Below the pieces are notes generated by a model. The model did no database searches. It was not told the DNA's origin and saw nothing but the letters and a program-made list of their open reading frames with translations. DNA of 64,000 bases from Mytilus galloprovincialis (Eukaryota; Mollusca; Bivalvia; Mytilida; Mytilidae), in NCBI RefSeq assembly GCF_965363235.1, contig NC_134840.1, positions 60,754,793-60,818,792 of the forward strand, read 5' to 3'. The position numbers and the translations under genes are program-made. Shown piece after piece: positions 29,339 through 56,859 of the stretch. Position 1 is the stretch's first letter; each line of letters starts with the position of its first letter.

Positions 29339-29341
<3 letters not shown>

Positions 29342-29366
29342 GTTTTTATATTATAAATTCTCATCA

Positions 29367-30530
29367 ATGGCTTCAACAAAGACACAAGATGAACGTTTGA
29401 CTGAATGGAACAGCAGTGTTATGAAATATTTGATTCCGAACGACGTTGTATTATCTCTTTACTTGATACTAGGAACTATTGGAAATATAACTGTTATTTT
29501 GGTATATGTTTTCAAAATGAAAGTAAAGCGAGATGACCGATTTTTTATACCAGTGCTTGCTTCCGTGGACTTTATAGCATGTCTTATTGGAGCATCGTTT
29601 GCCTTTACTTGGAACATAATACCAGTAAAGTTCAGTAATGGAATTGTCTGTGAAGCACTGTGGTTTGTTTCTCAAGCGGTAACAATTATATCTGCAGTTT
29701 TATTGATAATAATAGCAGTGCAGCGATACCTTAAAGTATGCAAGCCATCATTTATTTTTACGCAGAAAATGAAAAATGTTTGTATTATTTTGGCTGTTTG
29801 TTTCGGATTTGCATTTTCAGTTCCAATATTTTTCTATTATGGTTCGGTAGAAATTTATAACCCAAAGCTGAATGTTACAGGATTTTGGTGTGGACAAAAG
29901 AGAGAAAACATAGATCACGTGATTATATATGATATAAGTGCCGTTGTCGTAGCAGTTATAGCTTCCTTTGTTCTTATCATATTGTACATTTTGATTGGAA
30001 AGGCAATTTATCAAAAATTTATAGTATTCCAACAATCTGTGAAAGAGGGAAAGTATACTAAAAAACACAGGAGTTCGGTGGAGTTAGAAAGTGTACTATC
30101 TGTTGATAAAGATAAAGACAGCGGATCTTCACGATCAAGAGCGAACAGTATCGAAGATCTCGTCGAATGCGATACATATAGACGAAAAGTCAAAAGAGGC
30201 TCCGCTGATACCCTTGACCAAGGACGTTTCTTCACAATAGGACAACATTTTCGGACGCACAGATATTCATACATGTTTATGACAATCACTGCACTATTTA
30301 TCATTGCATATACACCACGACTAGCACTGATGGTTTTAGAAAGTATGGATCCTACTTTTTGGAACAAACCTAATGACGCAATCGCAGGATTTTTGTTTCT
30401 GTATAGGATGTACATTTTAAATCATGCTATTAATCCATTTATTTATACCTTTTTCGATACAAGATTCCGCAAAGCAGTTTCAGAAATATTTTGTTGTTGT
30501 TGTTCTACGAGAAAATCCGTGTCGCTATGA
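29367..30530 (+). CDS. Class A (rhodopsin-like) orphan GPCR, receptor 3
   Basis: A 387-residue single-exon receptor. I place the start at 29367 (MASTK) rather than the in-frame ATG at 29340, because receptors 4 and 5 start at the matching codon, have the same length, and share the preceding TCAATGG context. GN at 39-40 in TM1, D68 in TM2, C95 and C175 as the likely disulphide, QRY at 119-121 in place of DRY followed by LKVCKPSF, AYTPR in TM6 in place of CWxP, NPFIY at 356-360. ICL3 carries SRSRANSIEDLVECD and KRGSADTLDQG, conserved in receptors 4 and 5 and holding basic-directed serine sites. The C-tail has four adjacent cysteines (FCCCCS). Very similar to receptors 4 and 5, more distant from 1 and 2. 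Ligand unknown. Confidence 0.93.
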   Translation: MASTKTQDERLTEWNSSVMKYLIPNDVVLSLYLILGTIGNITVILVYVFKMKVKRDDRFFIPVLASVDFIACLIGASFAFTWNIIPVKFSNGIVCEALWFVSQAVTIISAVLLIIIAVQRYLKVCKPSFIFTQKMKNVCIILAVCFGFAFSVPIFFYYGSVEIYNPKLNVTGFWCGQKRENIDHVIIYDISAVVVAVIASFVLIILYILIGKAIYQKFIVFQQSVKEGKYTKKHRSSVELESVLSVDKDKDSGSSRSRANSIEDLVECDTYRRKVKRGSADTLDQGRFFTIGQHFRTHRYSYMFMTITALFIIAYTPRLALMVLESMDPTFWNKPNDAIAGFLFLYRMYILNHAINPFIYTFFDTRFRKAVSEIFCCCCSTRKSVSL

Positions 30531-31564
30531 TGAACTCGCCATTGGTAAAAATAGTACTATCATTATTCAGAAGTAACGTTGTTCAATTTATCATGCATTT
30601 AAGATTATCAATTTTTATTAGTTACTTTTAAGATTTGTTATGTATTTATTATTATACTTTAATACACAAATGCTGAGATAAATTGATTTGAATTAAATAT
30701 TTTGTGACAACAGCATCCCCTAATTGAACAAATGTATATCAGCTTTGGATTTCAAATATTTTGGCCACGAGCATCACTGAAGAGACATGTATTGGCGCAA
30801 TGCGCATCTGGTGCAAGAAAATTGGTACAGTTAATTTTATAATTGAATGCTCCTCTTTGCATTGGAATGTAAAAGCATTGACGGAATGGTATTTTGTATG
30901 ACCACGCTTTATACTAAAAATTATGAGCACGTTCAGCGCTGTAGATAACGGCTTCTTTATCCTAATTACAAAATGAAACATTCAATGCATATAACTACAT
31001 CATGAAATAACGAGTAAAATTAATCATTTGGTTTTTTTTCTTCTTTTGCAAAATAGTTGTCTTGGATAGCATGTGCATTTCGAAAGTAAAATGTAATGCA
31101 TAAGCCAATCAAAATTACTGAATTCAATGATAAAAATTAAAATTATCAATGCCCATTTTAGCGCAATATTTTTAACTCATTTAATAATAGATAATAAATG
31201 TTTTTTTAATAGAGACAAGAAGGCACACTATAACAAATATCATCCTGATCAATCCCATTAAGATAAGCACTAAAAGTCTAAACGAAATACAATGTTAAAA
31301 GTTAAAAATCCTAGCTCTGGATATACCCCCTGTACAATACAGTTGCTGTTCTTTCTCTTAATCTTTTCTAGGTTGTGGTCTTTAATACTTCGTATATTTA
31401 TATAATATGATGTTGTTTGCAATTTGATGATAGTGTCAAGAAAAGCGTTAATAGCTGGTGACATCTATGAAATTGCTAATAATAATGGGAAATGGAGCGA
31501 CTCTAAATCATTATTTGTTTGCTATGAATTTCAAGGAATTATTTGTGGTTTCAGTAAGGTGAAT
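30531..31564. other. 3' flank of receptor 3
   Basis: AAATTGATTTGAATT near 30679 also follows receptors 4 and 5 (about 54675 and 58292), so the 3'UTRs are homologous. About 30745-30835 (CGAGCATCACTGAAGAGACA, GCGCATCTGGTGCAAG) is an interspersed repeat fragment that shares a motif with family D. No other gene. Confidence 0.45.
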
Positions 31565-31770: not shown

Positions 31771-31779
31771 CTGAAATGA
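31771..31779. repeat. 9-bp target-site duplication, left
   Basis: CTGAAATGA, immediately outside the terminal inverted repeat; the exact copy is at 47131-47139. Confidence 0.85.
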
Positions 31780-31822
31780 ATGGGCGTCAAGTTGGTTACC
31801 TATTCCCTATTCCCTATTCGTT
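31780..31822 (+). repeat. Left 43-bp terminal inverted repeat
   Basis: Identical to the reverse complement of 47088-47130. The outer 16 bp are unique sequence; the inner part is TACC followed by three CTATTC units, that is, the element's own short repeat. Confidence 0.9.
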
Positions 31823-31949
31823 ACATACTAACATAATGTGGTGGAGTTAAACATGTAAGCAGGGTGTACATCGCTTCGGAGCATGCTATTACCTTGTTTA
31901 ATTCGTTCCATCACTCGCTTATAATTCGCTTATAATACGAGTATCTTAC

Positions 31950-34900
31950 GTTGCACCTTTTAAAACATCATTTTCAATTGTTTTGTTGTCTCTGGTGGAA
32001 GATTTGGGCTCTAAGAGGTGATATAACTCTATAAGTGCATTTGTATCCGTTCCAGCGCTCGGATAATACCCTGTTAAATATTCGTTACTTATTCGCTTTT
32101 AAAAAGTTTGTTGTACGTTGCACCTTTTAGAAAAGGATTTTTCATTGTCTCCATGTCTCTTGTGGTAACAATGTGTTCTAAGAGATGAAATTACCCTATT
32201 AGCGCGCATGTACCCGTTCCAGCGCTCGGTAAATACCCTGTTACCTATTCGTTAACTATTCGTTACCTATTCACTTATAATACGTTTGTTGTACGTTGCA
32301 CCTTTTAGAAAAGGATTTTCAATTGTGTCCGTGTCTCTGGTGGTAACAATGTGTTCTTAGAGATGAAATGACCCTAATAGTGCGCATGTACCCGTTCAAG
32401 CGCTCGGTTAATACCCTGTTACCTATTCGTTACCTATTCGTTACTTATTCGCTTTTAATACGTTTGTTGTACGTTGCATCTTTTAGAAAAGAATTTTCAA
32501 TTAAATTCATATCTCTGGTGGTAACAATGTGTTCTTATAGATGAAATACCCCTATAAGCGCATATGTACTCGTTCCAGCGCTCGGATAACACCCTGTTAC
32601 TTATTCGTTCCTTATTTGCTTTTAATGCACGAGATATACGTTGCACCTTGAAATAAATCGTTTTTTAATTGTGTTCATGTCTCTGGTGGTAAGAATGTGT
32701 TCTTAGAGATGAAATGACCCTATTAGAGCGCATGTTCCCGTTCCAGCGCTCGGTTAATACCCTGTTACCTATTCGTTACCTATTCGTTACCTATTCGTTA
32801 CCTATTCACTTATAGTACGTTTGTTGTACGTTGCACCTTTTAGAAAAGAATTTTCAATTAAATTCATATCTCTGGTGGTAACAATGTGTTCTTATAGATG
32901 AAATACCCCTATAAGCGCATATGTACTCGTTCCAGCGCTCGGATAACACCCTGTTACTTATTCGTTACTTATTCGATTTTAATGCGCGGGATATACGTTG
33001 CACCTTGAAATAAATAGTTTTTTAATTGTGTGTATGTCTCTGGTGGTAACAATGTGTTCTTAGAGATGAAATGACCATACTAGCGCGCATGTATCCGTTT
33101 CAGCGCTCGGTTAATATCCTGTTACCTATTCGTTACCTTTTTGTTACCTATTCACTAATAAAACGTTTGTTGTACGTTGCACCTTTTAAAAAAGGATTTT
33201 CAATTAAATTCATATCTCTGGTGGTAATAATGTGTTCTTATAGATGAAATACCCCTATTAGCGCGTATGTACCCGTTCCAGCGCTCAGTTAATACCCTGC
33301 TACTTATTCGTTCCTTATTTGCTTTAAATGCACGAGGTATACGTTGCACCTTGATATAAATCGTTTTTTAATTGTGTTCATATCTCTGGTGGTAACAATG
33401 TGTTCTTAGAGATGATATGACCCTATTAGAGCGCATGATCCCGTTCCAGCATTCGGTTAATACCCTGTTACCTATTCGTTACCTATTCGTTACCTATTCA
33501 CTTATAAAACGTTTGTTGTACGTTGCACCTTTTAGAAAAGGATTTTTAATTGTCTCCATGTCTCTTGTGGTAACAATGTGTTCTTAGAGATGAAATTACC
33601 CTATTAGCGCGCATGTACCCGTTGCAGCACTCAGTAAATACCTTGTTACCTATTCGTTACCTATTCGTTACCTATTCACTTATAATACGTTTGTTGTACG
33701 TTGCACCTTTTAGAAAAGGATTTTCAATTGTTTCCGTGTCTCTGGTGGTAACACTGTGTTCTTAGAGATGAAATGACCCTATTAGCGCGCATGTACCTGT
33801 TCAAGCGCTCGGTCACAGTAATACCCTGTTACCTATTCGTTACCTATTCGTCACTTATTCGCTTTTAATACGTTTATTGTACGATGCATCTTTAAGAAAA
33901 GAATTTTCATTTAAGTTCATTTCTCTGGTGGAAATAATGTGTTCCTCTAGATGAAATACCTCTATTAGCGCATATGTACTCGTTCCAGCGCTCGAATAAT
34001 ACCCTGTTACTTATTCGTTCCTTATTTGTTTTAAATGCACGAGGTATACGTTGCACCTTGAAATAAATCGTTTTTTTAATTGTGTTCATGTCTCTGCTGG
34101 TAACAATGTCTTCTTAGAGATGAAATGACCCTATTAGAGCGCATGTGTTCGTTCCAGCGCTCGGTTAATACCCTGTTACCTATTCGTTACCTATTCACTT
34201 ATAATACGTTTGTTGTACATTGCACCTTTTAGAAAAGGATTTTTAATTGTCTCCATGTCTCTTGTGGTAACAATGTGTTCTTAGAGATGAAATTACCCTA
34301 TTAGCGCGCCTGTACCTGTTCCAGCGCTCGGTAAATACCCTGTTACCTATTCGTTACCTATTCACTTATAATACGTTTGTTGTACGTTGCACCTTTAAGA
34401 AAAGGATTTTCAATTGTGTCCGTGTCTCTGGTGGTAACAATGTGTTCTAAGAGATGAAATGACCCTATTAGCGCGGATGTACCCTTTCCAGCATTCGGTT
34501 AATACCCTGTTACCTATTCGTTACCTATTCGTTACCTATTCGTTACCTATTCACTTATAAAACGTTTGTTGTACGTTGCACCTTTTAGAAAAGGATTTTT
34601 AATTGTCTCCATGTCTCTTGTGGTAACAATGTGTTCTTAGAGATGAAATTACCCTATTAGCGCGCATGTACCCGTTCCAGCGCTCAGTAAATACCTTGTT
34701 ACCTATTCGTTACCTATTCGTTACCTATTCACTTATAATACGTTTGTTGTACGTTGCACCTTTTAGAAAAGGATTTTCAATTGTTTCCGTGTCTCTGGTG
34801 GTAACAATGTGTTCTGAGAGATGAAATGACCCTATTAGCGCGCATGTACCTGTTCAAGCGCTCGGTCACAGTAATAACCTGTTACCTATTCGTTACCTTT

Positions 34901-37900
34901 TGTTCACTTATTCGCTTTTAATACGTTTGTTGTACGATGCATCTTTAAGAAAAGAATTTTCATTTAAGTTCATTTCTCTGGTGGAAATAATGTGTTCCTC
35001 TAGATGAAATACCTCTATTAGCGCATATGTACTCGTTCCAGCGCTCGAATAATACCCTGTTACTTATTCGTTCCCTATTTGCTTTAAATGCACGAGGTAT
35101 ACGTTGCACCTTGAAATAAATCGTTTTTTTAATTGTGTTCATGTCTCTGGTGGTAACAATGTCTTCTTAGAGATGAAATGACCCTATTAGAGCGCATGTT
35201 TTCGTTCCAGCGCTCGGTTAATACCCTGTTACCTATTCGTTACCTATTCGTTACCTATTCACTTATAATACGTTTGTTGTACATTGCACCTTTTAGAAAA
35301 GGATTTTTAATTGTCTCCATGTCTCTTGTGGTAACAATGTGTTCTTAGAGATGAAATTACCCTATTAGCGCGCATGTACCCGTTCCAGCGCTCGGTAAAT
35401 ACCCTGTTACCTATTCGTTACCTATTCACTTATAATACGTTTGTTGTACATTGCACCTTTTAGAAAAGGATTTTTAATTGTCTCCATGTCTCTTGTGGTA
35501 ACAATGTGTTCTTAGAGATGAAATTACCCTATTAGCGCGCATGTTCCCGTTCCAGCGCTCGGTTAATACCCTGTTACCTATTCGTTACCTATTCGTTACC
35601 TATTCGTTACCTATTCACTTATAGTACGTTTGTTGTACGTTGCACCTTTTAGAAAAGGATTTTCAATTAAATTCATATCTCTGGTGGTAACAATGTGTTC
35701 TTATAGATGAAATACCCCTATAAGCGCATATGTACTCGTTCCAGCGCTCGGATAACACCCTGTTACTTATTCGTTACTTATTCGATTTTAATGCGCGGGA
35801 TATACATGTACGTTGCACCTTGAAATAAATCGTTTTTTAATTGTGTGTATGTCTCTGGTGGTAACAATGTGTTCTTAGAGATGAAATGACCATACTAGCG
35901 CGCATGTATCCGTTTCAGCGCTCGGTTAATATCCTGTTACCTATTCGTTACCTTTTTGTTACCTATTTACTAATAAAACGTTTGTTGTACGTTGCACCTT
36001 TAGAAAAGGATTTTCAATTAAATTCATATCTCTGGTGGTAAAAATGTGTTCTTATAGATGAAATACCCCTATTAGCGCGTATGTACCCGTCCCAGCGCTC
36101 AGTTAATACCCTGCTACTTATTCGTTCCTTATTTGCTTTAAATGCACGAGGTATACGTTGCACCTTGATATAAATCGTTTTTTAATTGTGTTCATATCTC
36201 TGGTGGTAACAATGTGTTCTTAGAGATGATATGACCCTATTAGAGCGCATGATCCCGTTCCAGCATTCGGTTAATACCCTGCTACCTATTCGTTACCTAT
36301 TCGTTACCTATTCACTTATAAAATGTTTGTTGTACGTTGCACCTTTTAGAAAAGGATTTTTAATTGTCTCCATGTCTCTTGTGGTAACAATGTGTTCTTA
36401 GAGATGAAATGACCCTATTAGCGCGCATGTACCTGTTCAAGCGCTCGGTCACAGTAATACCCTGTTACCTATTCGTTACCTATTCGTCACTTATTCGCTT
36501 TTAATACGTTTGTTGTACGATGCATCTTTAAGAAAAGAATTTTCATTTAAGTTCATTTCTCTGGTGGAAATAATGTGTTCCTCTAGATGAAATACCTCTA
36601 TTAGCGCATATGTACTCGTTCGAGCGCTCGAATAATACCCTGTTACTTATTCGTTCCTTATTTGCTTTAAATGCACGAGGTATACGTTGCACCTTGAAAT
36701 AAATCGTTTTTTTAATTGTGTTCATCTCTCTGGTGGTAACAATGTCTTCTTAGAGATGAAATGACCCTATTGGAGCGCATGTTCCCGTTCCAGCGCTCGG
36801 TTAATACCCTGTTACCTATTCGTTACCTATTCACTTATAATACGTTTGTTGTACATTGCACCTTTTAGAAAAGGATTTTTAATTGTCTCCATGTCTCTTG
36901 TGGTAACAATGTGTTCTTAGAGATGAAATTACCCTATTAGCGCGCATGTACCTGTTCCAGCGCTCGGTAAATACCCTGTTACCTATTCGTTACCTATTCA
37001 CTTATAATACGTTTGTTGTACGTTGCACCTTTAAGAAAAGGATTTTCAATTGTGTCCGTGTCTCTGGTGGTAACAATGTGTTCTAAGAGATGAAATGACC
37101 CTATTAGCGCGGATGTACCCTTTCCAGCATTCGGTTAATACCCTGTTACCTATTCGTTACCTATTCGTTACCTATTCGTTACCTATTCACTTATAAAACG
37201 TTTGTTGTACGTTGCACCTTTTAGAAAAGGATTTTTAATTGTCTCCATGTCTCTTGTGGTGACAATGTGTTCTTAGAGATGAAATTACCCTATTAGCGCG
37301 CATGTACCCGTTCCAGCGCTCAGTAAATACCTTGTTACCTATTCGTTACCTATTCGTTACCTATTCACTTATAATACGTTTGTTGTACGTTGCACCTTTT
37401 AGAAAAGGATTTTCAATTGTTTCCGTGTCTCTGGTGGTAACAATGTGTTCTGAGAGATGAAATGACCCTATTAGCGCGCATGTACCTGTTCAAGCGCTCG
37501 GTCACAGTAATACCCTGTTACCTATTCGTTACCTTTTGTTCACTTATTCGCTTTTAATACGTTTGTTGTACGATGCATCTTTAAGAAAAGAATTTTCATT
37601 TAAGTTCATTTCTCTGGTGGAAATAATGTGTTCCTCTAGATGAAATACCTCTATTAGCGCATATGTACTCGTTCCAGCGCTCGAATAATACCCTGTTACT
37701 TATTCGTTCCCTATTTGCTTTAAATGCACGAGGTATACGTTGCACCTTGAAATAAATCGTTTTTTTAATTGTGTTCATGTCTCTGGTGGTAACAATGTCT
37801 TCTTAGAGATGAAATGACCCTATTAGAACGCATGTTCCCGTTCCAGCGCTCGGTTAATACCCTGTTACCTATTCGTTACCTATTCGTTACCTATTCACTT

Positions 37901-40900
37901 ATAATACGTTTGTTGTACATTGCACCTTTTAGAAAAGGATTTTTAATTGTCTCCATGTCTCTTGTGGTAACAATGTGTTCTTAGAGATGAAATTACCCTA
38001 TTAGCGCGCATGTACCTGTTCCAGCGCTCGGTAAATACCCTGTTACCTATTCGTTACCTATTCACTTATAATACGTTTGTTGTACGTTGCACCTTTAAGA
38101 AAAGGATTTTCAATTGTGTCCGTGTCTCTGGTGGTAACAATGTGTTCTAAGAGATGAAATGACCCTATTAGCGCGGATGTACCCTTTCCAGCATTCGGTT
38201 AATACCCTGTTACCTATTCGTTACCTATTCGTTACCTATTCGTTACCTATTCACTTATAAAACGTTTGTTGTACGTTGCACCTTTTAGAAAAGGATTTTT
38301 AATTGTCTCCATGTCTCTTGTGGTGACAATGTGTTCTTAGAGATGAAATTACCCTATTAGCGCGCATGTACCCGTTCCAGCGCTCAGTAAATACCTTGTT
38401 ACCTATTCGTTACCTATTCGTTACCTATTCACTTATAATACGTTTGTTGTACGTTGCACCTTTTAGAAAAGGATTTTCAATTGTTTCCGTGTCTCTGGTG
38501 GTAACAATGTGTTCTGAGAGATGAAATGACCCTATTAGCGCGCATGTACCTGTTCAAGCGCTCGGTCACAGTAATACCCTGTTACCTATTCGTTACCTTT
38601 TGTTCACTTATTCGCTTTTAATACGTTTGTTGTACGATGCATCTTTAAGAAAAGAATTTTCATTTAAGTTCATTTCTCTGGTGGAAATAATGTGTTCCTC
38701 TAGATGAAATACCTCTATTAGCGCATATGTACTCGTTCCAGCGCTCGAATAATACCCTGTTACTTATTCGTTCCCTATTTGCTTTAAATGCACGAGGTAT
38801 ACGTTGCACCTTGAAATAAATCGTTTTTTTAATTGTGTTCATGTCTCTGGTGGTAACAATGTCTTCTTAGAGATGAAATGACCCTATTAGAGCGCATGTT
38901 CCCGTTCCAGCGCTCGGTTAATACCCTGTTACCTATTCGTTACCTATTCGTTACCTATTCACTTATAATACGTTTGTTGTACATTGCACCTTTTAGAAAA
39001 GGATTTTTAATTGTCTCCATGTCTCTTGTGGTAACAATGTGTTCTTAGAGATGAAATTACCCTATTAGCGCGCATGTTCCCGTTCCAGCGCTCGGTTAAT
39101 ACCCTGTTACCTATTCGTTACCTATTCACTTATAATACGTTTGTTGTACATTGCACCTTTTAGAAAAGGATTTTTAATTGTCTCCATGTCTCTTGTGGTA
39201 ACAATGTGTTCTTAGAGATGAAATGACCCTATTAGCGCGCATGTACCTGTTCAAGCGCTCGGTCACAGTAATACCCTGTTACCTATTCGTTACCTATTCG
39301 TCACTTATTCGCTTTTAATACGTTTGTTGTACGATGCATCTTTAAGAAAAGAATTTTCATTTAAGTTCATTTCTCTGGTGGAAATAATGTGTTCCTCTAG
39401 ATGAAATACCTCTATTAGCGCATATGTACTCGTTCGAGCGCTCGAATAATACCCTGTTACTTATTCGTTCCTTATTTGCTTTAAATGCACGAGGTATACG
39501 TTGCACCTTGAAATAAATCGTTTTTTTAATTGTGTTCATCTCTCTGGTGGTAACAATGTCTTCTTAGAGATGAAATGACCCTATTGGAGCGCATGTTCCC
39601 GTTCCAGCGCTCGGTTAATACCCTGTTACCTATTCGTTACCTATTCACTTATAATACGTTTGTTGTACATTGCACCTTTTAGAAAAGGATTTTTAATTGT
39701 CTCCATGTCTCTTGTGGTAACAATGTGTTCTTAGAGATGAAATTACCCTATTAGCGCGCATGTACCTGTTCCAGCGCTCGGTAAATACCCTGTTACCTAT
39801 TCGTTACCTATTCACTTATAATACGTTTGTTGTACGTTGCACCTTTAAGAAAAGGATTTTCAATTGTGTCCGTGTCTCTGGTGGTAACAATGTGTTCTAA
39901 GAGATGAAATGACCCTAGTAGCGCGGATGTACCCTTTCCAGCATTCGGTTAATACCCTGTTACCTATTCGTTACCTATTCGTTACCTATTCGTTACCTAT
40001 TCACTTATAAAACGTTTGTTGTACGTTGCACCTTTTAGAAAAGGATTTTTAATTGTCTCCATGTCTCTTGTGGTAACAATGTGTTCTTAGAGATGAAATT
40101 ACCCTATTAGCGCGCATGTTCCCGTTCCAGCGCTCGGTTAATACCCTGTTACCTATTCGTTACCTATTCGTTACCTATTCGTTACCTATTCACTTATAGT
40201 ACGTTTGTTGTACGTTGCACCTTTTAGAAAAGGATTTTCAATTAAATTCATATCTCTGGTGGTAACAATGTGTTCTTATAGATGAAATACCCCTATAAGC
40301 GGATATGTACTCGTTCCAGCGCTCGGATAACACCCTGTTACTTATTCGTTACTTATTCGATTTTAATGCGCGGGATATACGTTGCACCTTGAAATAAATC
40401 GTTTTTTAATTGTGTGTATGTCTCTGGTGGTAACAATGTGTTCTTAGAGATGAAATGACCATACTAGCGCGCATGTATCCGTTTCAGCGCTCGGTTAATA
40501 TCCTGTTACCTATTCGTTACCTTTTTGTTACCTATTCACTAATAAAACGTTTGTTGTACGTTGCACCTTTTAGAAAAGGATTTTCAATTAAATTCATATC
40601 TCTGGTGGTAATAATTTGTTCTTATAGATGAAATACCCCTATTAGCGCGTATGTACCCGTCCCAGCGCTTAGTTAATACCCTGCTACTTATTCGTTCCTT
40701 ATTTGCTTTAAATGCACGAGGTATACGTTGCACCTTGATATAAATCGTTTTTTAATAGTGTTCATATCTCTGGTGGTAACAATGTGTTCTTAGAGATGAT
40801 ATGACCCTATTAGAGCGCATGATCCCGTTCCAGCATTCGGTTAATACCCTGCTACCTATTCGTTACCTATTCACTTATAAAATGTTTGTTGTACGTTGCA

Positions 40901-43613
40901 CCTTTTAGAAAAGGATTTTTAATTGTCTCCATGTCTCTTGTGGTAACAATGTGTTCTTAGAGATGAAATTACCCTATTAGCGCGCATGTACCCGTTCCAG
41001 CGCTCAGTAAATACCTTGTTACCTATTCGTTACCTATTCGTTACCTATTCACTTATAATACGTTTGTTGTACGTTGCACCTTTTAGAAAAGGATTTTCAA
41101 TTGTTTCCGTGTCTCTGGTGGTAACAATGTGTTCTGAGAGATGAAATGACCCTATTAGCGCGCATGTACCTGTTCAAGCGCTCGGTCACAGTAATACCCT
41201 GTTACCTATTCGTTACCTTTTGTTCACTTATTCGCTTTTAATACGTTTGTTGTACGATGCATCTTTAAGAAAAGAATTTTCATTTAAGTTCATTTCTCTG
41301 GTGGAAATAATGTGTTCCTCTAGATGAAATACCTCTATTAGCGCATATGTACTCGTTCCAGCGCTCGAATAATACCCTGTTACTTATTCGTTCCCTATTT
41401 GCTTTAAATGCACGAGGTATACGTTGCACCTTGAAATAAATCGTTTTTTTAATTGTGTTCATGTCTCTGGTGGTAACAATGTGTTCTTAGAGATGAAATG
41501 ACCCTATTAGAGCGCATGTTCCCGTTCCAGCGCTCGGTTAATACCCTGTTACCTATTCGTTACCTATTCGTTACCTATTCACTTATAATACGTTTGTTGT
41601 ACATTGCACCTTTTAGAAAAGGATTTTTAATTGTCTCCATGTCTCTTGTGGTAACAATGTGTTCTTAGAGATGAAATTACCCTATTAGCGCGCATGTTCC
41701 CGTTCCAGCGCTCGGTTAATACCCTGTTACCTATTCGTTACCTATTCACTTATAATACGTTTGTTGTACATTGCACCTTTTAGAAAAGGATTTTTAATTG
41801 TCTCCATGTCTCTTGTGGTAACAATGTGTTCTTAGAGATGAAATGACCCCATTAGCGCGCATGTACCTGTTCAAGCGCTCGATCACAGTAATACCCTATT
41901 ACCTATTCGTTACCTATTCGTCACTTATTCGCTTTTAATACGTTTGTTGTACGATGCATCTTTAAGAAAAGAATTTTCATTTAAGTTCATTTCTCTGGTG
42001 GAAATAATGTGTTCCTCTAGATGAAATACCTCTATTAGCGCATATGTACTCGTTCCAGCGCTCGAATAATACCCTGTTACTTATTCGTTCCCTATTTGCT
42101 TTAAATGCACGAGGTATACGTTGCACCTTGAAATAAATCGTTTTTTTAATTGTGTTCATGTCTCTGGTGGTAACAATGTGTTCTTAGAGATGAAATGACC
42201 CTATTAGAGCGCATGTTCCCGTTCCAGCGCTCGGTTAATACCCTTTTACCTATTCGTTACCTATTCACTTATAATACGTTTGTTGTACATTGCACCTTTT
42301 AGAAAAGGATTTTTAATTGTCTCCATGTCTCTTGTGGTAACAATGTGTTCTTAGAGATGAAATTACCCTATTAGCGCGCATGTACCTGTTCCAGCGCTCA
42401 GTAAATACCCTGTTACCTATTCGTTACCTATTCACTTATAATACGTTTGTTGTACGTTGCACCTTTAAGAAAAAGATTTTTAATTGTTTCCATGTCTCTG
42501 GTGGTAACAATGTGTTCTTAGAGATGAAATGACCCTATTAGCGAGCATGACCCGTTCCAGCGCTCGGTAAATAACCTGTTACCTATTCGTTACTTATTCG
42601 ATTTTAATGCGCAGGATATACGTTGCACCTTGAAATAAATCGTTTTTTAATTGTGTTCATATCTCTGGTGGTAACAATGTGTTCTTCGAGATGAAATGAC
42701 CCTATTAGCGCGCATGTACCCGTTCCAGCGCTCGGTTAATACCCTGTTACCTATTCGTTACCTATTCACTTATAATACGTTTGTTGTACATTGCACCTTT
42801 TAGAAAAGGATTTTTAATTGTCTCCATGTCTCTTGTGGTAACAATGTGTTCTAAGAGATGAAATTACCCTATTAGCGCGAATGTACCCGTTCCAGCGCTC
42901 AGTTAATACCTTGTTACCTATTCGTTACCTATTCACTTATAATACGTTTGTTGTACGTTGCACCTTTTAGTAAAGGATTTTCAATTGTGTCCGTGTCTCT
43001 GGTGGTAACAATGTGTTCTAAGAGATGAAATGACCCTATTAGCGTGCATGTACCCTTTCCAGCACTCGGTTAATACCCTGTTACCTATTTCTTACCTATT
43101 CACTTGTAATACGTTTGTTATACGTTGCACCTTTTAGAAAAAGATTTTCAATTGTATCCATGTCTCTGGTGGTAACAATGTGTTCTAAGAGATGAAATTA
43201 CCCGATTACCACGTATGTACCCGTTCCAGCGCTCGGTTAATATCCTGTTACCTACTCGTTACATATTTGTTACCTATTCACTTATAAAACGTTTGTTGTA
43301 CGTTGCACCTTTTAAAAAAGGATTTTCAATTGTGCCCATGTCTCTGGTGGTAACCATGTGTTCTTAGAGATGAAATGACCCTATTAGAGCGCATGTACCC
43401 GTTCCAGCGCTCGGTAAAAAATCTGTTACCTATTGGTTACTTATTCCCTTTTAATGCGCAGGGTATACGGTGCACCTTGAAAGAAATCGTTTTTTAATTG
43501 TGTTCAAGTCTCTGCTGGTAAGAATGTGTTCTTAGAGATGAAATGACCGTAATAGCGTACATGTACCTGTTCCAGCGCTCGGTTAATACCCTGTTACCTA
43601 TTCGTTACCTATA
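31950..43613 (+). repeat. Satellite array, left arm (about 65 monomers)
   Basis: Monomers of about 165-200 bp carry, in order, TTGTACGTTGCACC, TCTCTGGTGGTAACAATGTG, TTAGAGATGAAATGACCCTA, GTTCCAGCGCTCGGTTAATA and CCCTGTT, then one to four units of the 11-bp TTACCTATTCG motif that make the length vary. Two monomer types alternate irregularly: ACGTTTGTTGTACGTTGCACC-like and a type with GCACGAGGTATACGTTGC. A diagnostic type recurs at 33907, 34960, 36543, 37596, 38660, 39357, 41280 and 41977 (spacing 1053, 1583, 1053, 1064, 697, 1923, 697), showing reshuffled higher-order blocks. The eight 60-codon reverse frames are satellite translations, not genes. Confidence 0.9.
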
Positions 43614-44443
43614 TAAGTGAATAGGTAACGAATAGGTTACGAATAGGTAACAGGGTATTAACCGAGCACTGAAACGGGTACATGCGCGCTAATAGGGTAA
43701 TTTCATCTCTAAGAACACATTGTTACCACCAGAGACATGAACACAATTAAAAAACGTTTTATTTTAAGGTGCAGCGTATACCCCTGCGCAGTAAAAGCGA
43801 ATAAGGAACGAATAAGCATCTGGGTATTATCCGAGCGCTGGAACGAGTACATACGCGGTAATAGGGGTATTTCATCTTTAAAAACACATAATTACCACCA
43901 GAGATATGAACTTAATTAAAAATCCTTTTCTAAAAGGTGCAACGTACAACAAACGTATTATAAGTTAATAGGTAAAGAATAGGTAACGAATAGGTAACAG
44001 GGTATTATCCGAGCGCTGGAACGGGTACATGCGCGCTAATAGGGTAATTTCATCTCTTACAACACATTGTTAACACCAGAGTCATGGACACAATTAAAAA
44101 TCCGTTTCTAAAAGGTGCAACGTATAACAAACATATTATCAGTGAATAGGTAACTAATAGGTAACATGGTATTATCCTAGCGCTGGAACGGGTACATGCG
44201 CGCTTATAGTCGTATTTCATCTCTAAGAACACATTATTACCACCAGAGATATGGACACAATTGAAAATCCTTTTCTAAAAGGTGCAACGTACAACAAAAG
44301 TATTAAAAGTGAATAGGTAACGAATAGGTAACGAATAGGTAACAGGGTATTATCCGAGCACTGGAACGGGTACATGCGCGCTAATATGGTCATTTCATCT
44401 CTAAGAACACATTCTTACCACCACAGACATGAACACAATTAAA
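43614..44443 (-). repeat. Satellite array, right arm, inner part
   Basis: The satellite continues in reverse orientation (GAATAGGTAACGAATAGG, GAGCGCTGGAACGGGTACAT, GGTGCAACGTACAACAAACG) for about five monomers. The switch at about 43613 joins ...TTACCTAT to ATAAGTGAATAGGTAA... with no spacer. Confidence 0.9.
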
Positions 44444-45877
44444 CAAGAGGCTCTCAAGAGCCTGAATCGCTCACCTTAATTTTTTTGGTTAAATCTCTGA
44501 TCAATGATTATTTTGGCTTTTCAATTTATTTTTAAATGTTCTTTGAATCGTCCTATTTTCTTCAAAAGCAAACAAAATTTTTTCTCCTATGTTCTATTTT
44601 AGCCATAGGAGCTATGTTTCTTGACATACAAGGAAATAAAATATAAAATTTATACTAGATACTCTGAAACTCATTTAGCCTAAGTTTGGCTGAAATTGAT
44701 ACAGCAGTTTCAAAGGAGAAGATTTTTTTAAAGTAAGTCAACATGATGAACAAATTGTGTAAAAAGTTGTTAAAGGGCAATAACTCCTTAAGGGGTAAAT
44801 TGACAATTTTGGTCAAATTGACTTATTTGTAGATCTTACTTTGCTTAACATTTTTGCTATTAACAGTTTATCTGTATCTATAATAATATTCAAGATAATA
44901 ACCCAAAACTGCAAAATTTCTTTAAAATCATCAATTCAGGGGCATTATACCTGCTAAACCAGTTACCCGATTCGGCTGAAAATTTCAGGACAGGTAGACC
45001 TTGACCTAATAAATACTTTAACTTCTTGTCTTATTTGCTCTAAATGCTGGAGTTTTTGAGATATAAGCCAAAAACTGCATTTTAACCTGTGTTTTATTTT
45101 TAGCCATGACGGCCATGTTTTTTGACGAAATAGAAAATAAAACACAAACTTTATTTTATACACCCTACTGATCATTCAGTTGAAGTTTGGTTGAATTTGG
45201 TTGAGTAGTTTTAGAGGAGAAGATTTTTCAAAGTTAGCAAATATGATGAACAAATTGTGAAAAATTGTCATTAAAGGACAATAACCCCTTAAGGGGTCAA
45301 TTGACAATTTTGGTCATATAAAATTTATTTGTAGATCTTACTTTGTTGATCATTTTTGCTGTTTACAGTTTATCTTTATCTATAATAATATTCAAGATAA
45401 TGACCAAAAACTGCAAAATTTCCTTAATTTACCAGATAAGTGGCAGCAACCCAACAATGGGTTGTTTGATTCATCTGAAAATTTCAGGGCTGATAGATCT
45501 TCACCTAATGAACATTTTTACCCCCATGTCAGATTTGCTCTAAATGTTTTCGTTTTTGAGATATAAGCCAAAAACTGCATTTGACCCCTATGTTCTATTT
45601 TTAGAAATGGCGACCATGTTTTTTGATAGATCAAAACGTCGGATACAATTTATAAACTAGATACCCTAAGGAACATTCAGTTAAAGTTTGGAAGTATTTG
45701 GCCTAGTAGTTTCAGAGGAGAAGATTCTTGAAATAGTTTACGACGACAGACGACGACAACGACGACGACAGACGACGACAGACGACGGACGACGGACGAC
45801 GACAGACGACGGACGACGACGGACGACGACGGACGCCAAGTGATGGCATAAGCTCACATGGCTATGCCAGGTGAGCT
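44444..45877 (+). mobile_element. Hairpin-ended element H2 inserted in the satellite
   Basis: Left hairpin AGGCTCTCAAGAGCCT (44448-44463) then TCGCTCACCTT; right end a GAC/GACG-rich run, then GCTCACATGGCTATGCCAGG and TGAGCTAAAAA. It is the uninterrupted relative of H1. Satellite text on both sides (ACACAATTAAA | ... | AAAAACGATTTATTTTAAGG) joins to a normal monomer, so the boundaries are defined to within the A run, with at most one or two duplicated A residues. Internally two diverged copies of a segment of about 500 bp are recognisable (GGGCAATAACTCCTTAAGGG and GGACAATAACCCCTTAAGGG). Non-coding. Confidence 0.7.
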
Positions 45878-46337
45878 AAAAACGATTTATTTTAAGGTGC
45901 AGCGTATTCTCCTGTGCATTGAAAGCGAATAAGGAACGAATAAGTAACAGGGTATTATCCGAGCGCTAGAACGAGTACATACGCGCTAATAGGGGTATTT
46001 CATCTATAAGAACACATTGTTACCACCAGAAACATGAATTTAATTGAAAATCCTTTTCTAAAAGGTGCAACGTACAACAAACGTATTATAAGTGAATAGG
46101 TAACGAATAGGTAACAGGGTATTAACCGAGCGCTGGAACGGGTGCATGCGCGCTAATAGGGTCGTTTCATCTCTAAGAACACATTGTTACCACCAAAGAC
46201 ACGGACACAATTGAAAATCCTTTTCTAAAAGGTGCAACGTACAACAAACGTATTATAAGTGAATAGGTAACGAAAAGGTAACGAATAGGTAACAGGGTAT
46301 TAACCGAGCGCTGGAACGGGTACATGCGCGCTTATAG
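45878..46337 (-). repeat. Satellite array, right arm, outer part
   Basis: About two and a half reverse-orientation monomers resume after H2 and stop abruptly in GTACATGCGCGCTTATA, within a monomer. Confidence 0.85.
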
Positions 46338-46800
46338 GCCATTTTGAAAATTCTAACTTCAAAATCCAACTCTGCCTATGCCAGTTACCATTCCTGTAAA
46401 GTTTCATCCAGTTTACTCAAAATTCTTATTTTTGAAATTTTTGACCTTTTTGCATTGTTTCCATGGTAACAAGACCTATTTTGGAAATTCCAACTCCAAA
46501 TGCCATATCTACCAATGTTGCTTATCATTACTGTGAAGTTTCATGAAGTTTTGAGCATTTTGAGAATTTTGAAAATTTTGGTGTAGTTTCCATGGCAACA
46601 TAGTAGTTCCAATGATCGCCAAAATCATCCAACACCTGTATATAGTGGGCACCTACAATGTTTTAAAATATGATGACTCTGAGTTGAAGCATATCCAAAC
46701 AGTTCACCAAAAACCAAAAACTGATTTTTTTCACAATTGTGCCGTTTCCATGGTAGCGGCAGCCATATTAAACTATTCCATGCCATAATTAAAAAGGGGG
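46338..46800. repeat. Foreign segment with diverged internal repeats
   Basis: Two diverged units of about 150 bp each end in GTTTCCATGG(T/C)AACA (about 46458 and 46588), and a third GTTTCCATGGTAGC lies near 46743. It has no counterpart in the left arm, so it was acquired later or marks lost sequence. Non-coding. Confidence 0.5.
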
Positions 46801-46814
46801 AAGGATATTAAAAA

Positions 46815-47118
46815 TCAAATAAGTAACGAATAAGTAACGAATAGGGAATAGGGAATAGGTAACGAATAGGTAACGAATAGGGAATAGGGAATAGGTAACG
46901 AATAGGCAACTAATAGGGAATAGGGAATAGGTAACGAATAGGTAACGAATAGGGAATAGGGAATAGGTAACGAATAGGCAACGAATAGGGAATAGGGAAT
47001 AGGTAACGAATAGGTAACGAATAGGGAATAGGGAATAGGTAACGAATAGGCAACGAATAGGGAATAGGGAATAGGTAACGAATAGGCAACGAATAGGGAA
47101 TAGGGAATAGGTAACCAA
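46815..47118 (-). repeat. Terminal 36-bp minisatellite of the giant element
   Basis: About eight copies of a 36-bp unit built from GAATAGGTAAC and GAATAGGGAATAGG. Because 36 is divisible by three, the reverse strand stays open for 113 codons as a 12-residue repeat (TYSLFPIRCLFV), which is not a gene. The 11-bp AACGAATAGGT core is the same motif that separates the satellite monomers. Confidence 0.9.
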
Positions 47119-47130
47119 CTTGACGCCCAT

Positions 47131-47139
47131 CTGAAATGA
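47131..47139. repeat. 9-bp target-site duplication, right
   Basis: CTGAAATGA, exact copy of 31771-31779, running straight into a run of about 20 C residues (to 47158). Confidence 0.85.
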
Positions 47140-47158
47140 CCCCCCCCCCCCCCCCCCC

Positions 47159-47519
47159 GAAGTACTTAATTTTTTCCGCTAAAATGTCCTGCTCCCTATG
47201 AAACCTATATTATATAATGTTAAAGTTCAATAAAGTACACCTTTGTTTGGTTTTACGTGCTGCTTAGTTGCTCTCTCGTTGATGTTTACCCTTTTTTACA
47301 TAAGAAATACCATGTTGTATATCGCCATTTCTTCAACCTTTATAACTTTATTCAGAGTTTAAAATAAATGAAAACTTTTCTCGTAGAAAGAAGAATACAA
47401 GATTTATCTGGAAAAAAAATGTCAGCAAATCAAACTTTAAGAAGCAACAACTTTTGCGTTTGTGTGTAAATTTAGTCTGTATGTATTTGCCTAATCATCA
47501 ATATTGTTCTGCTTTTCGT
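47159..47519. other. Gene-free stretch
   Basis: AT-rich flank of the giant element; nothing recognised. Confidence 0.35.
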
Positions 47520-50061: not shown

Positions 50062-50139
50062 TCGTAAACTTATCATTTTTTTCAAAGTCTTGAGTCACAA
50101 ATAAAACATTATTTGTATACATTTTTCAATCTTGCTTTA

Positions 50140-50856
50140 TAGAATGAAATTCAAAACAGTGTGGCTGTGGCCATTGATTGACACATTAAATTCATCCATT
50201 GACTGGGACAATTTAGGTGAACGTTTGTATGTAACGACCACTGCTCACTATGTACTTTTTAAAGACACTTAAACTATGGGGTCACCAAAGGTTCTCAACA
50301 CCTTAATAAAGTAATTCGAAAAATTAATCAGAAATAACACGATGTTTTGATTTATATCAATCACGGCTGGTAATCTACACACGCAGAACATTTGGTTCTG
50401 CAATGAAAACCGTGAGAGGATTTTCCGGTTGTGCTTGAGTGGAGTAATTGTCACCGCTTCAAAAGGTATGTACATTTCTAAATCTCAATTTTCTTATACA
50501 ACTGATCAAAATATTGAAAATCGGAGAATGCTATGCTGTGGTGAATACTTTAACGAAGAGATACATGTATCATTTCCTGTTGTACGTAGAGTTGAACTCC
50601 AACAAAATCAGTTGTTCCACGAGAAATTGCCTAAAAAAGTGACATTTCAATTTTGAAATGGTTCTATTTACAGACCTACAAGTTCAAATTTAGTTTTTTT
50701 TCGTGCAATGGGTATGAATGTTGTTTTTGGCGGCGTGTGCGCTGTCCTGTGTTGATAGACGTCTTAATAATTCCAAAAACAACATTTTTCCATGAAGTCA
50801 TGCGTGAGGGGATCGGTTCTGATTGAGGACATCGTGAATGCGTGAGGGGAAGTACA
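50140..50856 (+). repeat. Inverted duplication, left arm
   Basis: Reverse-complementary to 51615-53000 (after removing the MITE at 52193-52850) with scattered differences. Short frames in both arms (about 50350-50656 here) encode GNLHTQNIWFCNENRER and SGVIVTASKGMY; I do not recognise the peptide. A good splice donor (AAAAG then GTATGTAC) follows, but no acceptor is seen before it. Confidence 0.8.
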
Positions 50857-51614: not shown

Positions 51615-53000
51615 TGTACCTCCCCTCACGCATTTACGATGTCCTCAATCAGAACCGATTCCCTCACGCATGACTTCATGAAAAAATGTAGTTTTTGGAA
51701 TTATTAAGACGTCTATCAACACAGGACAGCGCACACGCCGCCAAAAACAACATTCATACCCATTGCACGAAAAAAAACTAAATTTGAACTTGTAGGTCTG
51801 TAACTAGAACCATTTCAAAATTGAAATGTCACTTTTTTAGGCAATTTCTCGTGGGACAACTGATTTTGTAGGAGTTCAACTCTACGTACAACAGTAAATG
51901 ATACATGTATCTCTTCGTTAAAGTATTCACCACAGCATAGCATTCTCCGATTTTCAATATTTTGATCAGTTGAATAAGAAAATTGAGATTTAGAAATGTA
52001 CATACCTTTTGAAGCGGTGACAATTACTCCACTCAAGCACAACCGGAAAATCCTCTCACGGTTTTCATTGCAGAACCAAATGTTCTGCGTGTGTAGATTA
52101 CCAGCCGTGTCAATTATATAAATCAAAACATAAAGGTTATTCCTGATAAATTTTTCGAATTATTTTATAATTAAAGGCGTTAAGAAACCTTTGGTAGCAA
52201 TACACAGTTAGAAGTTTAGTTTCGCATTATGACCCCTGTGAATTTTTTAAATATAAAAGTTTTTGTACAATAAAATTGATTTTTAGATAATTGAAGAATA
52301 ATATAGCCTTCTTAGTGGGTGTATTTGAACATTAAGATTGTTTTTAACATGTTTTATAGGCCATTTATATGATTGACAGTCCGTATTTTCCTATCCGTAC
52401 CGTTCATAGGTCCATACATTATTGTAGTGTTTATCAACAAAGATTTTGCGCTCGATCTTTTCAATTCAATTTTATGGAAAAACGAGCAGATAAGCATATG
52501 ATTTTTTTGGGACTACTTGATAGATATAAACCTATGGATTCAGGAAAGGTATTACTGTAATTGATTGAAATTTTCCTTTAGACCAAATTATGGAGACTTT
52601 TGTGACATGTTCACCCCCCTTTTTTGCTATATTTTGTATCTAAGAAATGCAGATTGTTGCCATGGTTACACCCAGGAGGGATTATATTTCACCCTTATGA
52701 CCATTAGAAATTAAATCTATGGAAGATTCTCTTTCTATAAGTATATACATGCATAACACAAATATAAAGCCTTCTTTGTTAGACAGGAGGGGAAAGAGGG
52801 TGTTTATGAGTGTCAATTTTAGGTTTTTTCCCTAACTGTGTATTGCTACCTTTGGTGACCCCACAGTTTAAATGTCTATCGTAGGTAGGTCGTGAACAGT
52901 GGTCGTTACAGACAAACGTTCACGTAAATTGTCCCAGTCAATGGATGAATTTAATGTGTCAATCAATGGCCACAGCCACACTGTTTTGAATTTCATTCTA
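51615..53000 (-). repeat. Inverted duplication, right arm, with MITE inside
   Basis: Pairs with 50140-50856. Only this arm carries the MITE at 52193-52850, so the arm at 50140-50856 preserves the empty site (AACCTTTGGTGACC in this arm's orientation). The outer 147 bp (52854-53000) belong to the receptor 4/5 tandem duplication and recur at 56471-56617. Confidence 0.8.
52193..52850. mobile_element. 658-bp MITE, PIF/Harbinger-like
   Basis: Terminal inverted repeats GGTAGCAATACACAGTTAG, flanked by TTT on each side (52190-52192, 52851-52853). A second copy at 61786-62448 has the same ends and TTA flanks, which fixes the element boundary at GG...CC and the duplication at 3 bp. A 3-bp T/A duplication with GG-starting termini fits PIF/Harbinger. 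The 63-codon internal frame is not a transposase. A possible ambiguity with a 7-bp CCTTTGG duplication is resolved by the second copy. Confidence 0.75.
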
Positions 53001-53206
53001 TTAACAAACGATATGTCAATATGATCTTCTTTTAATAGACAAATGGTCAGTCTTTAAATTGAGGTTTGATTGGTGCGTCGAAGCAAAACGGATAACTGCT
53101 CGACTTTCTATCTTACTATCATTGCGAGTCTTTTTCTGCGTTGCATAACGTTGAAATTTATATAATTTTTCAATTATATATCTGTATAATTTTTCAATTA
53201 TATATC

Positions 53207-53242
53207 CGTAGTAGTTCAACAATACAGATCCTTAAGATTAAG
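53207..53242 (+). promoter_or_regulatory. Conserved upstream block of receptor 4
   Basis: TATATCCGTA and CAATACAGATCCTTAAGATT, shared with receptor 3 at 29098-29141. About 121 bp before the start codon. Confidence 0.45.
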
Positions 53243-53363
53243 AGAGATTAATCGAATTATTTTATACTCGTAAAGAAAATTATCATTTACCATCTACCAC
53301 GGAATTGTTCTCTTATATGTGTAAAAAATATATTTGCTGTAGTAAATATATATATTCCTATCA

Positions 53364-54527
53364 ATGGCGTCAACAAAAATACAAGATGAACGTTTGACCG
53401 AATGGAACAACAGTGTTATGCAATATTTGTTTCCGAATAACGTTGTTTTATCTCTATACCTAATACTAGGAACTATTGGAAATTTAACTGTTATTTTGGT
53501 ATATGTTTTTAAAATGAAGGTCAAAAGGGATGATAGATTTTTTATACCGGTGCTTGCGATCGTGGATTTTATAGCATGTCTCATTGGTGCATCGTATGCC
53601 TTTGCTTGGAACCTTTTACCGGTAAAGTTCAAAAACGAATCTGCATGTCTAGCACTGTCCTTTGTTTCTCAAGGGGTAACAATTGTAGCTGCAAGTTTAT
53701 TAATGATAATAGCAGTGCAGCGTTACCTTAAAGTCTGTAAGCCATCATTTATTTTTACACAGAAAATGAAATATTTTTGTACTTTTTTGGCTTTTTGTTT
53801 TGGATGCGCATTTTCAGTTCCGATATTTTTCTATTATGGTGTGGTAGAAATGTACAATCCAATTCTTAATGTTACAGGATACTGGTGCGGACAAACGGTC
53901 CATTACAAAGACCACTTTATTCTTCATGATATAAGTGCTGCAGTATTTGCATTGATTGCTTCCATTGTTCTTATTATACTGTACATTTTGATTGGAAAGA
54001 CAATTTATCAAAAATTTATAAGATTCCATATATCTATGAAACAGGGAAAGTTTACCAAAACACCTAGTAGCTCTACGGAGGCGGAAAGTGTAGAACCGGT
54101 TGATAAAGATAACGTTCACAAGTCTTCAAGATCAAGAGCTAACAGTATCGAAGATCTCGTTGAATGCGACTCATATAGAGGAAAACTAAGACGAGGATCC
54201 ACTGATACCCTTGACCAAGGACGTTTCTACACAATAGGACAACATTTTCGAACGCACAGATACTCATACATGTTTATGACAATCACTGCACTATTTATCG
54301 TTGGTTATACACCACGATTAACACTGATGATTTTAGAAAGTCTTGATCCAAATTTTTGGAACAAACCTAATGAGACAATTGCAGGATTATTGTTCCTCTA
54401 TAGGATGTACCTTTTAAATCATGCTATAAATCCATTTATATATACCTTTTTTGATACAAGATTTCGCAAGGCAGTTTCAGAAATATTTTGTAGATGTTGC
54501 TCAACAAGAAAATCCATGTCTTTATGA
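53364..54527 (+). CDS. Class A (rhodopsin-like) orphan GPCR, receptor 4
   Basis: A 387-residue single-exon receptor. Helices by hydropathy: TM1 about 26-49 (GN at 39-40), TM2 about 59-81 (D68), TM3 about 96-118 ending QRY (119-121) then LKVCKPSF, TM4 about 138-158, TM5 about 193-215, TM6 about 291-313 with GYTPR in place of CWxP, TM7 about 338-360 with NPFIY (356-360). C95 and C175 are the likely disulphide, and NVT at 169-171 in ECL2 is an N-glycosylation sequon. ICL3 holds SRSRANSIEDLVECD, and the tail has FCRCCS for palmitoylation. The protein is identical to receptor 5. The start is the ATG in CTATCAATGG, and no earlier in-frame ATG is near. Ligand and coupling unknown; the loss of the acidic DRY residue suggests unusual activation, an inference. 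Confidence 0.94.
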   Translation: MASTKIQDERLTEWNNSVMQYLFPNNVVLSLYLILGTIGNLTVILVYVFKMKVKRDDRFFIPVLAIVDFIACLIGASYAFAWNLLPVKFKNESACLALSFVSQGVTIVAASLLMIIAVQRYLKVCKPSFIFTQKMKYFCTFLAFCFGCAFSVPIFFYYGVVEMYNPILNVTGYWCGQTVHYKDHFILHDISAAVFALIASIVLIILYILIGKTIYQKFIRFHISMKQGKFTKTPSSSTEAESVEPVDKDNVHKSSRSRANSIEDLVECDSYRGKLRRGSTDTLDQGRFYTIGQHFRTHRYSYMFMTITALFIVGYTPRLTLMILESLDPNFWNKPNETIAGLLFLYRMYLLNHAINPFIYTFFDTRFRKAVSEIFCRCCSTRKSMSL

Positions 54528-54850
54528 GAAATTCGTCATTCGTAGCAATTTAGTAAGAATTTACTTTATACAACGTATATTATATTTAGTAGTAATTTTC
54601 TATCAGATACTTTTAAGATTTGTTTTTTTTCTTAAGTCATACTTTATCCATGAAATTTCAAAACACTTTCTTAGATGAATTGATTTGAATTGCACTTAAA
54701 TCGATGTAACAAGATGGCATCTTCAGGATGAAGATGGTGTTTACTGAATATATAGAAAAATGATCCAATACTACAGAAAAATGAACCAATAAAAGAAGAG
54801 AAAAATCTAAATTTTCAAAATAGATAAGAGAATAGAGGATAGCTATAATA
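54528..54850. other. 3' flank of receptor 4
   Basis: Likely 3'UTR: GATGAATTGATTTGAATTGC near 54673 matches the receptor 3 3' flank. No canonical AATAAA close to the stop. Confidence 0.45.
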
Positions 54851-55138
54851 TAAAGAATAAAGAAAAATGACATAAAGAAATATAAAGAAAAAAGAAAAAT
54901 GACATAAATAAATATAAAGAATAAAGAAAAATGACATAAATAAATATAAAGAATAAAGAAAAATGACATAAATAAATATAAGGAATAAAGAAAAATGACA
55001 TAAATAAATATAAGGAATAAAGAAAAATGACATAAATAAATATAAAGAATAAAGAAAAATGACATAAATAAATATAAAGAATAAAGAAAAATGACATTAA
55101 TAAATATAAAGAATAAAGAAAAATGACATAAATAAATG
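54851..55138. repeat. 32-bp minisatellite, nine units (unit 1)
   Basis: AAAAATGACATAAATAAATA recurs every 32 bp, with ATGAC at 54867, 54899, 54931, 54963, 54995, 55027, 55059, 55091 and 55123. Because 32 is not a multiple of three, all three reverse frames are open in turn, giving spurious frames of up to 176 codons. Confidence 0.95.
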
Positions 55139-56058: not shown

Positions 56059-56157
56059 AGACAACACCACGTGCACTGTATCCATCGCTCTAGACAACAC
56101 CACGTGCACTGTATCCATCGCTCTAGACAACACCACGTGCACTGTATCAATCGCTCT
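56059..56157. repeat. Three 33-bp repeats, each with a CACGTG E-box
   Basis: The units begin at 56059, 56092 and 56125, each with ACAACACCACGTGCACTGTA. The third has one change. CACGTG is the canonical site for bHLH factors such as Myc/USF/CLOCK types; whether it acts here is unknown. Copied at 59676-59774. Confidence 0.9.
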
Positions 56158-56823: not shown

Positions 56824-56859
56824 CGTAGTAGTTCAACAATACAGATCCTTAAGATTAAG
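56824..56859 (+). promoter_or_regulatory. Conserved upstream block of receptor 5
   Basis: Copy of 53207-53242 in the tandem duplication, so receptor 5 keeps about 510 bp of the same upstream DNA. Confidence 0.45.

Follow-up and report, generated by a model that had tools for sequence, protein, structure and literature searches.

Foldback (FB) elements of Drosophila have inverted arms composed of short, 10–31 bp tandem repeats and generate 9-bp target duplications. Tetris, a foldback element of Drosophila virilis that its authors place in the Mutator superfamily, carries tandem repeats of ~220 bp, the TIR-220 satellite, within its terminal inverted repeats (TIRs) (PMC4079207). As far as the available text of that report goes, these repeats have undergone amplification within the element and are also present as long arrays of up to 66 copies, and its authors propose that larger arrays may have disrupted transposition (PMC4079207). 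For Tm1, a Mutator/Foldback family of root-knot nematodes, the accessible portion of the description reports composite TIRs in which a short repeat varies in number, target duplications of 8–10 bp, mostly 9 bp, in 45 of 53 elements, and some groups devoid of a transposase (PMC3169594). In bivalves, satellite-like monomers are carried by the Helentron/HINE elements pearl, Cg_HINE, DTC84 and MgE, according to the excerpts at hand of two reports (PMC7492417, PMC5139131). How satellites become many scattered arrays is an open question. Here we describe a 15-kb satellite block in a 64,000-nucleotide stretch of Mytilus galloprovincialis DNA (assembly GCF_965363235.1, contig NC_134840.1, positions 60,754,793 to 60,818,792 of the forward strand; hereafter the window, to which all positions refer). 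We consider it likely that this block, which with its target copies spans 31771–47139, is one non-autonomous foldback-type DNA transposon with satellite arms that inserted as a unit carrying a multi-monomer satellite. It appears that a mobile element carried the satellite array with it.

Element boundaries and insertion site

A preliminary description of this DNA had placed a perfect 43-bp inverted repeat at the two extremes of the block and an exact 9-bp direct repeat immediately outside it. Both features were confirmed at the stated coordinates. The left TIR (31780–31822, forward strand) is the exact reverse complement of the right TIR (47088–47130, reverse strand) at 43 of 43 positions; the outer 15 bases of the left TIR are unique and its inner part corresponds to one 36-bp-type unit. 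Directly flanking the TIRs, CTGAAATGA is present on the forward strand at 31771–31779 and again at 47131–47139, where it is followed by a C run, and neither strand of the window holds another copy. Because the neighboring bases differ, neither side can be extended and the target duplication is exactly 9 bp, in keeping with the ~9 bp of foldback and Mutator-like elements (MULEs), a length not exclusive to MULEs. When up to three mismatches were tolerated, the outer 16 bases of the TIR matched the window twice, both times exactly, as compared to a mean of 0.33 matches in shuffled sequence, with two matches in 3 of 100 shuffles.

As a control for chance flanking repeats, we took inverted pairs whose exact arms measured at least 20 bp, 1,167 with distinct maximal outer ends, and allowed 0–3 bases of trimming. 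The longest flanking direct repeat measured 0–3 bp in 1,130 of these, 4–6 bp in 34 and 7 bp in two, both within the satellite; in 691 there was none of 2 bp or more. The sole pair with a flanking direct repeat longer than 7 bp was that formed by the two TIRs, at 9 bp. The duplication also bears on whether the block could be an element of the Helentron/HINE (pearl) type in which satellite monomers are embedded. Satellite-like monomers of 160–170 bp do ride in such bivalve elements, one of them in Mytilus, yet the elements are described, in the text available, as having no target duplication (PMC7492417); the presence here of a 9-bp duplication together with TIRs makes such an origin exceedingly unlikely.

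An 11-base word spanning the right target copy and its flank, TGAAATGACCC (47132–47142), is also contained in 26 satellite monomers but is otherwise absent from the window. This could reflect chance, a preference for such targets or a vestige of earlier history. That the word belongs to the satellite is the main attraction of an account in which no transposition occurred, the block having arisen by inverted duplication of satellite together with its edges and the 9-bp repeat being a coincidence or satellite remnant. Inverted duplication yields inverted, not direct, flanks, and a direct repeat of this length accompanied one inverted pair in 1,167. Moreover, DNA beyond the 9-bp repeat is not satellite at an E value of 0.001, which also speaks against the target copy being a satellite fragment, and a paralogous locus lacks the block. 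We regard inverted duplication as highly improbable.

The paralogous locus was found through the genes at the insertion site. The block starts 1.2 kb downstream of a G-protein-coupled receptor (GPCR) gene (29340–30530, forward strand, 7tm_1), a relative of which lies at 53346–54527 (forward strand, 7tm_1; 81.6% identity to 29352–30694). The near 3' flank at 30563–30694 matches 54550–54691 behind the paralog with 66% identity, and the right flank at 47280–47367 (forward strand) matches 55150–55234, farther downstream of the paralog, with 72.7% identity over 88 columns. Either score was reached in none of 200 shuffles. The two matches occur in the same order at the paralog with no block between them, the flank anchors being separated by ~460 bp there versus ~1.2 kb plus the block at the element locus. 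Thus, the block is additional DNA relative to the paralog. A search of the window for an empty site by means of the repeat in the left flank gave nine non-self matches (E value of 1.3e-6 or better) that end 5–76 bases short of the joined junction; one enters four bases of the 9-mer and none crosses the junction.

Long GPCR-like single-frame genes number five in the window (6398–7537, 21588–22760, 29340–30530, 53346–54527 and 56963–58144), and the three that were scanned belong to 7tm_1. The last two of the five are the product of a 3.6-kb tandem duplication with 99.97% identity (52854–56471 and 56471–60088), possibly very recent or an assembly duplicate.

Satellite arms and the shared terminal motif

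Between the target copies, the block comprises, from left to right, a TIR, forward satellite, reverse satellite interrupted by a nested repeat, non-satellite DNA, a 36-bp array and the second TIR. The left arm (31823–43612, forward strand) contains 66 monomers of 166–190 bp, measured from anchor to anchor, and is strongly diverged at its outer edge. The right arm (reverse strand) holds ~7.5 monomers in an inner part (43613–44441) and an outer part (45878–46338). A single change of satellite orientation, as originally claimed, was confirmed, with forward satellite at ~31823–43612 and reverse satellite at 43613–46338. Satellite length differs greatly between arms (11,790 bp in the left versus 1,290 bp in the right). 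Collectively, the 73 full monomers are tandemly arranged with signs of local amplification and a mean divergence of 14.8%, consistent with a satellite array, and no satellite match outside the element was found in the window at an E value of 0.001 or better. This separate search covered the satellite outside the element; the self-comparison of the window omitted all rows with either side in 32050–44500.

Three further components were absent from the preliminary description. A nested interspersed repeat of 1,436 bp (44442–45877), with a relative at 11081–11720, splits one monomer without loss of satellite, its edges being uncertain by a few A residues; the element without it would measure ~13.9 kb. 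Outside the right arm is ~480 bp of non-satellite DNA (46339–46817), with only one short outside match (27 bp at 23503–23529). It is followed by a subterminal array (46818–47115, reverse strand) consisting of 8.3 copies of a 36-bp unit that is built of the TIR inner motif; the array overlaps the TIR. The nested repeat itself has an internal duplication (44580–45232 versus 45080–45733, 76% identity), an ACG-rich stretch near its right end, and CTCACCT and AGGTGAG near its ends as a short inverted pair.

The arms meet head to head at 43612/43613 with no separate middle domain, as seen by reading the sequence and by folding 43480–43750. As single-stranded DNA, these 271 bases folded at −105.1 kcal/mol, leaving 19 bases unpaired at the apex, as compared to a mean of −23.9 kcal/mol (standard deviation 3.5) for 200 shuffles (z −23). 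The predicted fold shows complementarity and is not proof of a hairpin in the cell. Head-to-head satellite and 36-bp repeats inside matched ends constitute the inverted arms with tandem repeats that are characteristic of foldbacks.

Ends and satellite have an 11-bp motif in common. GTTACCTATTC occurs 112 times in forward orientation, the left TIR contributing one copy and the forward arm 111, and 23 times in reverse, with 12 copies in the reverse arm and 11 across the right TIR and the 36-bp array; there are no copies in the window outside the element. The 36-bp unit can be read as 11+7+7+11 bases of this motif. When a list of variants was counted in addition to GTTACCTATTC, 24 of the 25 167-bp monomers contained one or two copies, seven of the eight 178-bp monomers three, and all six 189-bp monomers four. 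In these classes motif number tracks monomer length, indicating that the satellite holds variable numbers of the element's own terminal motif. Judged by this motif, ends and satellite are kin. The kinship, the abutment of the arms as a potential hairpin and the paralog without the block support the earlier proposal of a foldback transposon.

Inferred timing of array growth and proposed source of transposase

Ends and target copies together show no differences at 52 positions, so that divergence since insertion is at most 5.6% (95% bound). We grouped the 66 left and seven right full monomers, excluding two partial edge monomers, at 5.63%; this produced 16 groups by single linkage, 20 by average linkage and 22 by complete linkage. 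If one clock applies throughout, monomer pairs that differ by more than 5.6% should predate insertion, and at least 16 lineages, or ~2.7 kb, would therefore have been aboard. As dated by this comparison, a multi-monomer satellite with at least 16 lineages should have been carried at insertion.

The left arm has an additional history. Its monomers average 85% pairwise identity, and long stretches of it are nearly identical: 1,017 bp without a difference at an offset of 1,064 (1,373 bp at 99.1%), 1,691 bp at 98.9% at an offset of 2,620, and 1,389 bp at 99.2% at an offset of 3,700. Judged by their ~99% identity, these kilobase duplications show recent growth of the left arm. Growth may precede or follow insertion because 5.6% is an upper bound only. 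At 2–4%, the seven right-arm monomers group neither with one another nor with any left-arm monomer, and recent growth was therefore confined to the left arm; at 5.63%, two groups are common to both arms. Accordingly, the suggestion in the preliminary description that the satellite "moved, or grew, as a unit" can be made more specific: at least 16 lineages appear to have been aboard at insertion, and the left arm also grew recently, either before or after that event.

These data bear directly on a model in which a small transposon with few monomers inserted and nearly the whole array then grew in place, never having moved as a long array. The near-identical 1–1.7 kb duplications of the left arm are what local growth would produce, and the diverged outer left edge and short right arm also fit it. 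With respect to that edge, the first full left-arm monomer averages 76% identity, less than any other of the 16 edge monomers compared, and the 50 middle monomers average 85.5%, and the 124 bases between the left TIR and the first anchor are only 54% identical to the best-matching monomer. Set against growth in place are the 0 of 52 differences in ends and target copies, by which monomer pairs beyond 5.6%, representing at least 16 lineages, should predate insertion. We consider growth of nearly the entire array in place improbable, and favor insertion of an element with its multi-monomer satellite. Long near-identical duplications are also difficult to assemble, and the ends could be real with the array or its orientation change mis-assembled. 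The ends, target copies and junction reside in unambiguous sequence, however, and a collapsed or expanded array would not create TIRs and a target-site duplication (TSD); we assign an assembly artifact only the slimmest of chances.

Whether the two arms mirror each other was judged from their outer ends. The outer right satellite best matches the outer left (92.3% over 470 columns), with 88.4% for the next match of equal length and 91.5% reached by shorter matches of 413 bp. With monomers cut into 10 classes, a cut picked after inspection of the data, left-arm monomers 3–5 show the order D-H-C, which is found nowhere else in that arm but recurs at the right outer end. Rare variants give the symmetry no support: they link neither of the two outermost right monomers to its left partner, and one links the third. 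Mirror symmetry of the arms is at most suggestive on this evidence.

The element contains 44 stop-to-stop frames of at least 60 amino acids, the longest of which (129 amino acids) lies over the 36-bp array. None of the six frames scanned matched a Pfam family at 0.01, and no candidate transposase frame was found inside the element. The target duplication, being 9 bp, suggests the Mutator superfamily, and the element is probably Mutator-like. In the text available, most foldbacks seem to belong to this superfamily (PMC4079207), and the accessible part of one survey reports MULEs in all mollusc genomes covered (PMC10294476). The combination of TIRs and a target duplication is most simply explained by a transposase supplied in trans. 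We propose that such a transposase, most likely Mutator-like, would act on the ends and possibly on the repeated 11-bp motif as well. In Galileo, the internal repeats contain additional transposase-binding sites, and the same has been suggested for Tetris, as described in the excerpt available (PMC4079207); by analogy, satellite monomers may provide extra binding sites here too. The whole element would have inserted in one event, 1.2 kb beyond the 3' end of the GPCR gene, with, as divergence suggests, a satellite of multiple monomers already aboard. Before or after insertion, the left arm was enlarged recently, presumably by unequal exchange or a similar process; the right arm would have remained short and later been split by insertion of the nested repeat.

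Several points weigh against reading the block as a transposon that inserted with its satellite aboard. The element is known from one copy, with no match to a second pair of ends in the window, and neither an exact empty site nor a transposase was seen there; the paralog differs by other DNA as well and is not a base-exact empty site. Exact-pattern scans of viral contigs with the TIR, a satellite 23-mer and a left-flank 23-mer, and of prokaryote genome contigs with the TIR and a satellite 22-mer, gave no match, which says little because mussel DNA is not expected in either collection. The two arms differ greatly in length and mirror each other only weakly. TGAAATGACCC spans the right junction and yet is a word of 26 satellite monomers; 402 of 48,611 outside 11-mers are common to the element body, so that chance could account for the sharing, though not readily. 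The eight 183-bp monomers among the 66, with one or two motif copies, break the length rule. Gene conversion between the ends, or a faster satellite clock, would void the dating argument, and array length depends on the assembly.

Other repeats were detected in the window. A second inverted-repeat structure (50136–50856 and 51615–53004) has arms of 91–95% identity, the right one split by DNA resembling 61782–62450, and no flanking direct repeat of 6–10 bp was present near its outer ends. A 46-bp tandem array at 61509–61789 (6.1 copies, 98%) has a unit matching single copies at 995–1040 and 62451–62496, and a short array at 9885–10539, distant from the element, repeats a 170-bp unit 3.8 times with 89% matches.

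Comparison with described elements

Like Drosophila FB elements, the mussel element combines tandem repeats in inverted arms with a 9-bp duplication. Unlike FB elements, with their repeats of 10–31 bp, it has monomers of 166–190 bp with an 11-bp subrepeat, and its 36-bp array is on one side only. Among the literature matches listed, no title or abstract opening describes a TIR- and TSD-bounded satellite array in mussel. No cut-and-paste element with satellite arms this long between intact ends was found in the literature covered, which mostly excluded subscription journals, and the mussel satellite may already be named in Mytilus satellite papers in those journals. Of 12 sequence words sought in the literature, one was found, a left-flank word in a Mytilus coruscus primer, in agreement with a mussel origin of the DNA.

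Tm1 differs in having short non-inverted terminal motifs outside the TIR and a repeat of ~14 bp; one element is named at 1,080 bp, and the portion of the report available does not mention satellite-length monomers (PMC3169594). Bivalve Helentron/HINE elements, as the available excerpts describe them, have monomers of similar length but are of the rolling-circle type, with no target duplication and short arrays (six repeats or fewer in pearl).

In the mussel, an array of more than 11 kb is present between intact ends with a target duplication, and its monomers carry the terminal motif. It is possible, although we hold the idea as doubtful, that long arrays move as cut-and-paste units of at least 10 kb since their monomers carry the terminal 11-bp motif; array growth would then be transposon growth, and each dispersed locus of this satellite would be a foldback insertion that has expanded to a different extent. 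Should there be other copies, cut-and-paste dispersal of satellite is directly testable, and the growth of each array can be dated relative to its insertion. The preliminary description saw in the element a route by which satellite arrays could spread as single insertions. The principle is not as novel as was assumed there, as foldback tandem repeats that become a satellite are already in print for Tetris, in the text available of its report (PMC4079207).

The likeness to Tetris was established by description, not by sequence comparison, and extends as far as the available text of the Tetris report permits. Both elements are non-autonomous, with tandem repeats of satellite length in inverted arms. 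Tetris has no conserved open reading frame and target duplications of 8–10 bp; the mussel element has no candidate transposase frame and a duplication of 9 bp. The Tetris tandem unit shares a 37-bp stretch with the terminal domain, and the mussel satellite shares an 11-bp motif with the TIR. Unlike Tetris, which has a terminal flanking domain of up to 866 bp and a middle domain, the mussel element has arms that meet with no middle domain. The three structurally complete sequenced copies of Tetris contain short arrays, whereas the mussel element has 66 and ~7.5 monomers between intact ends with a target duplication. By analogy of structure, Tetris is a direct precedent for a satellite-armed foldback such as that proposed here.
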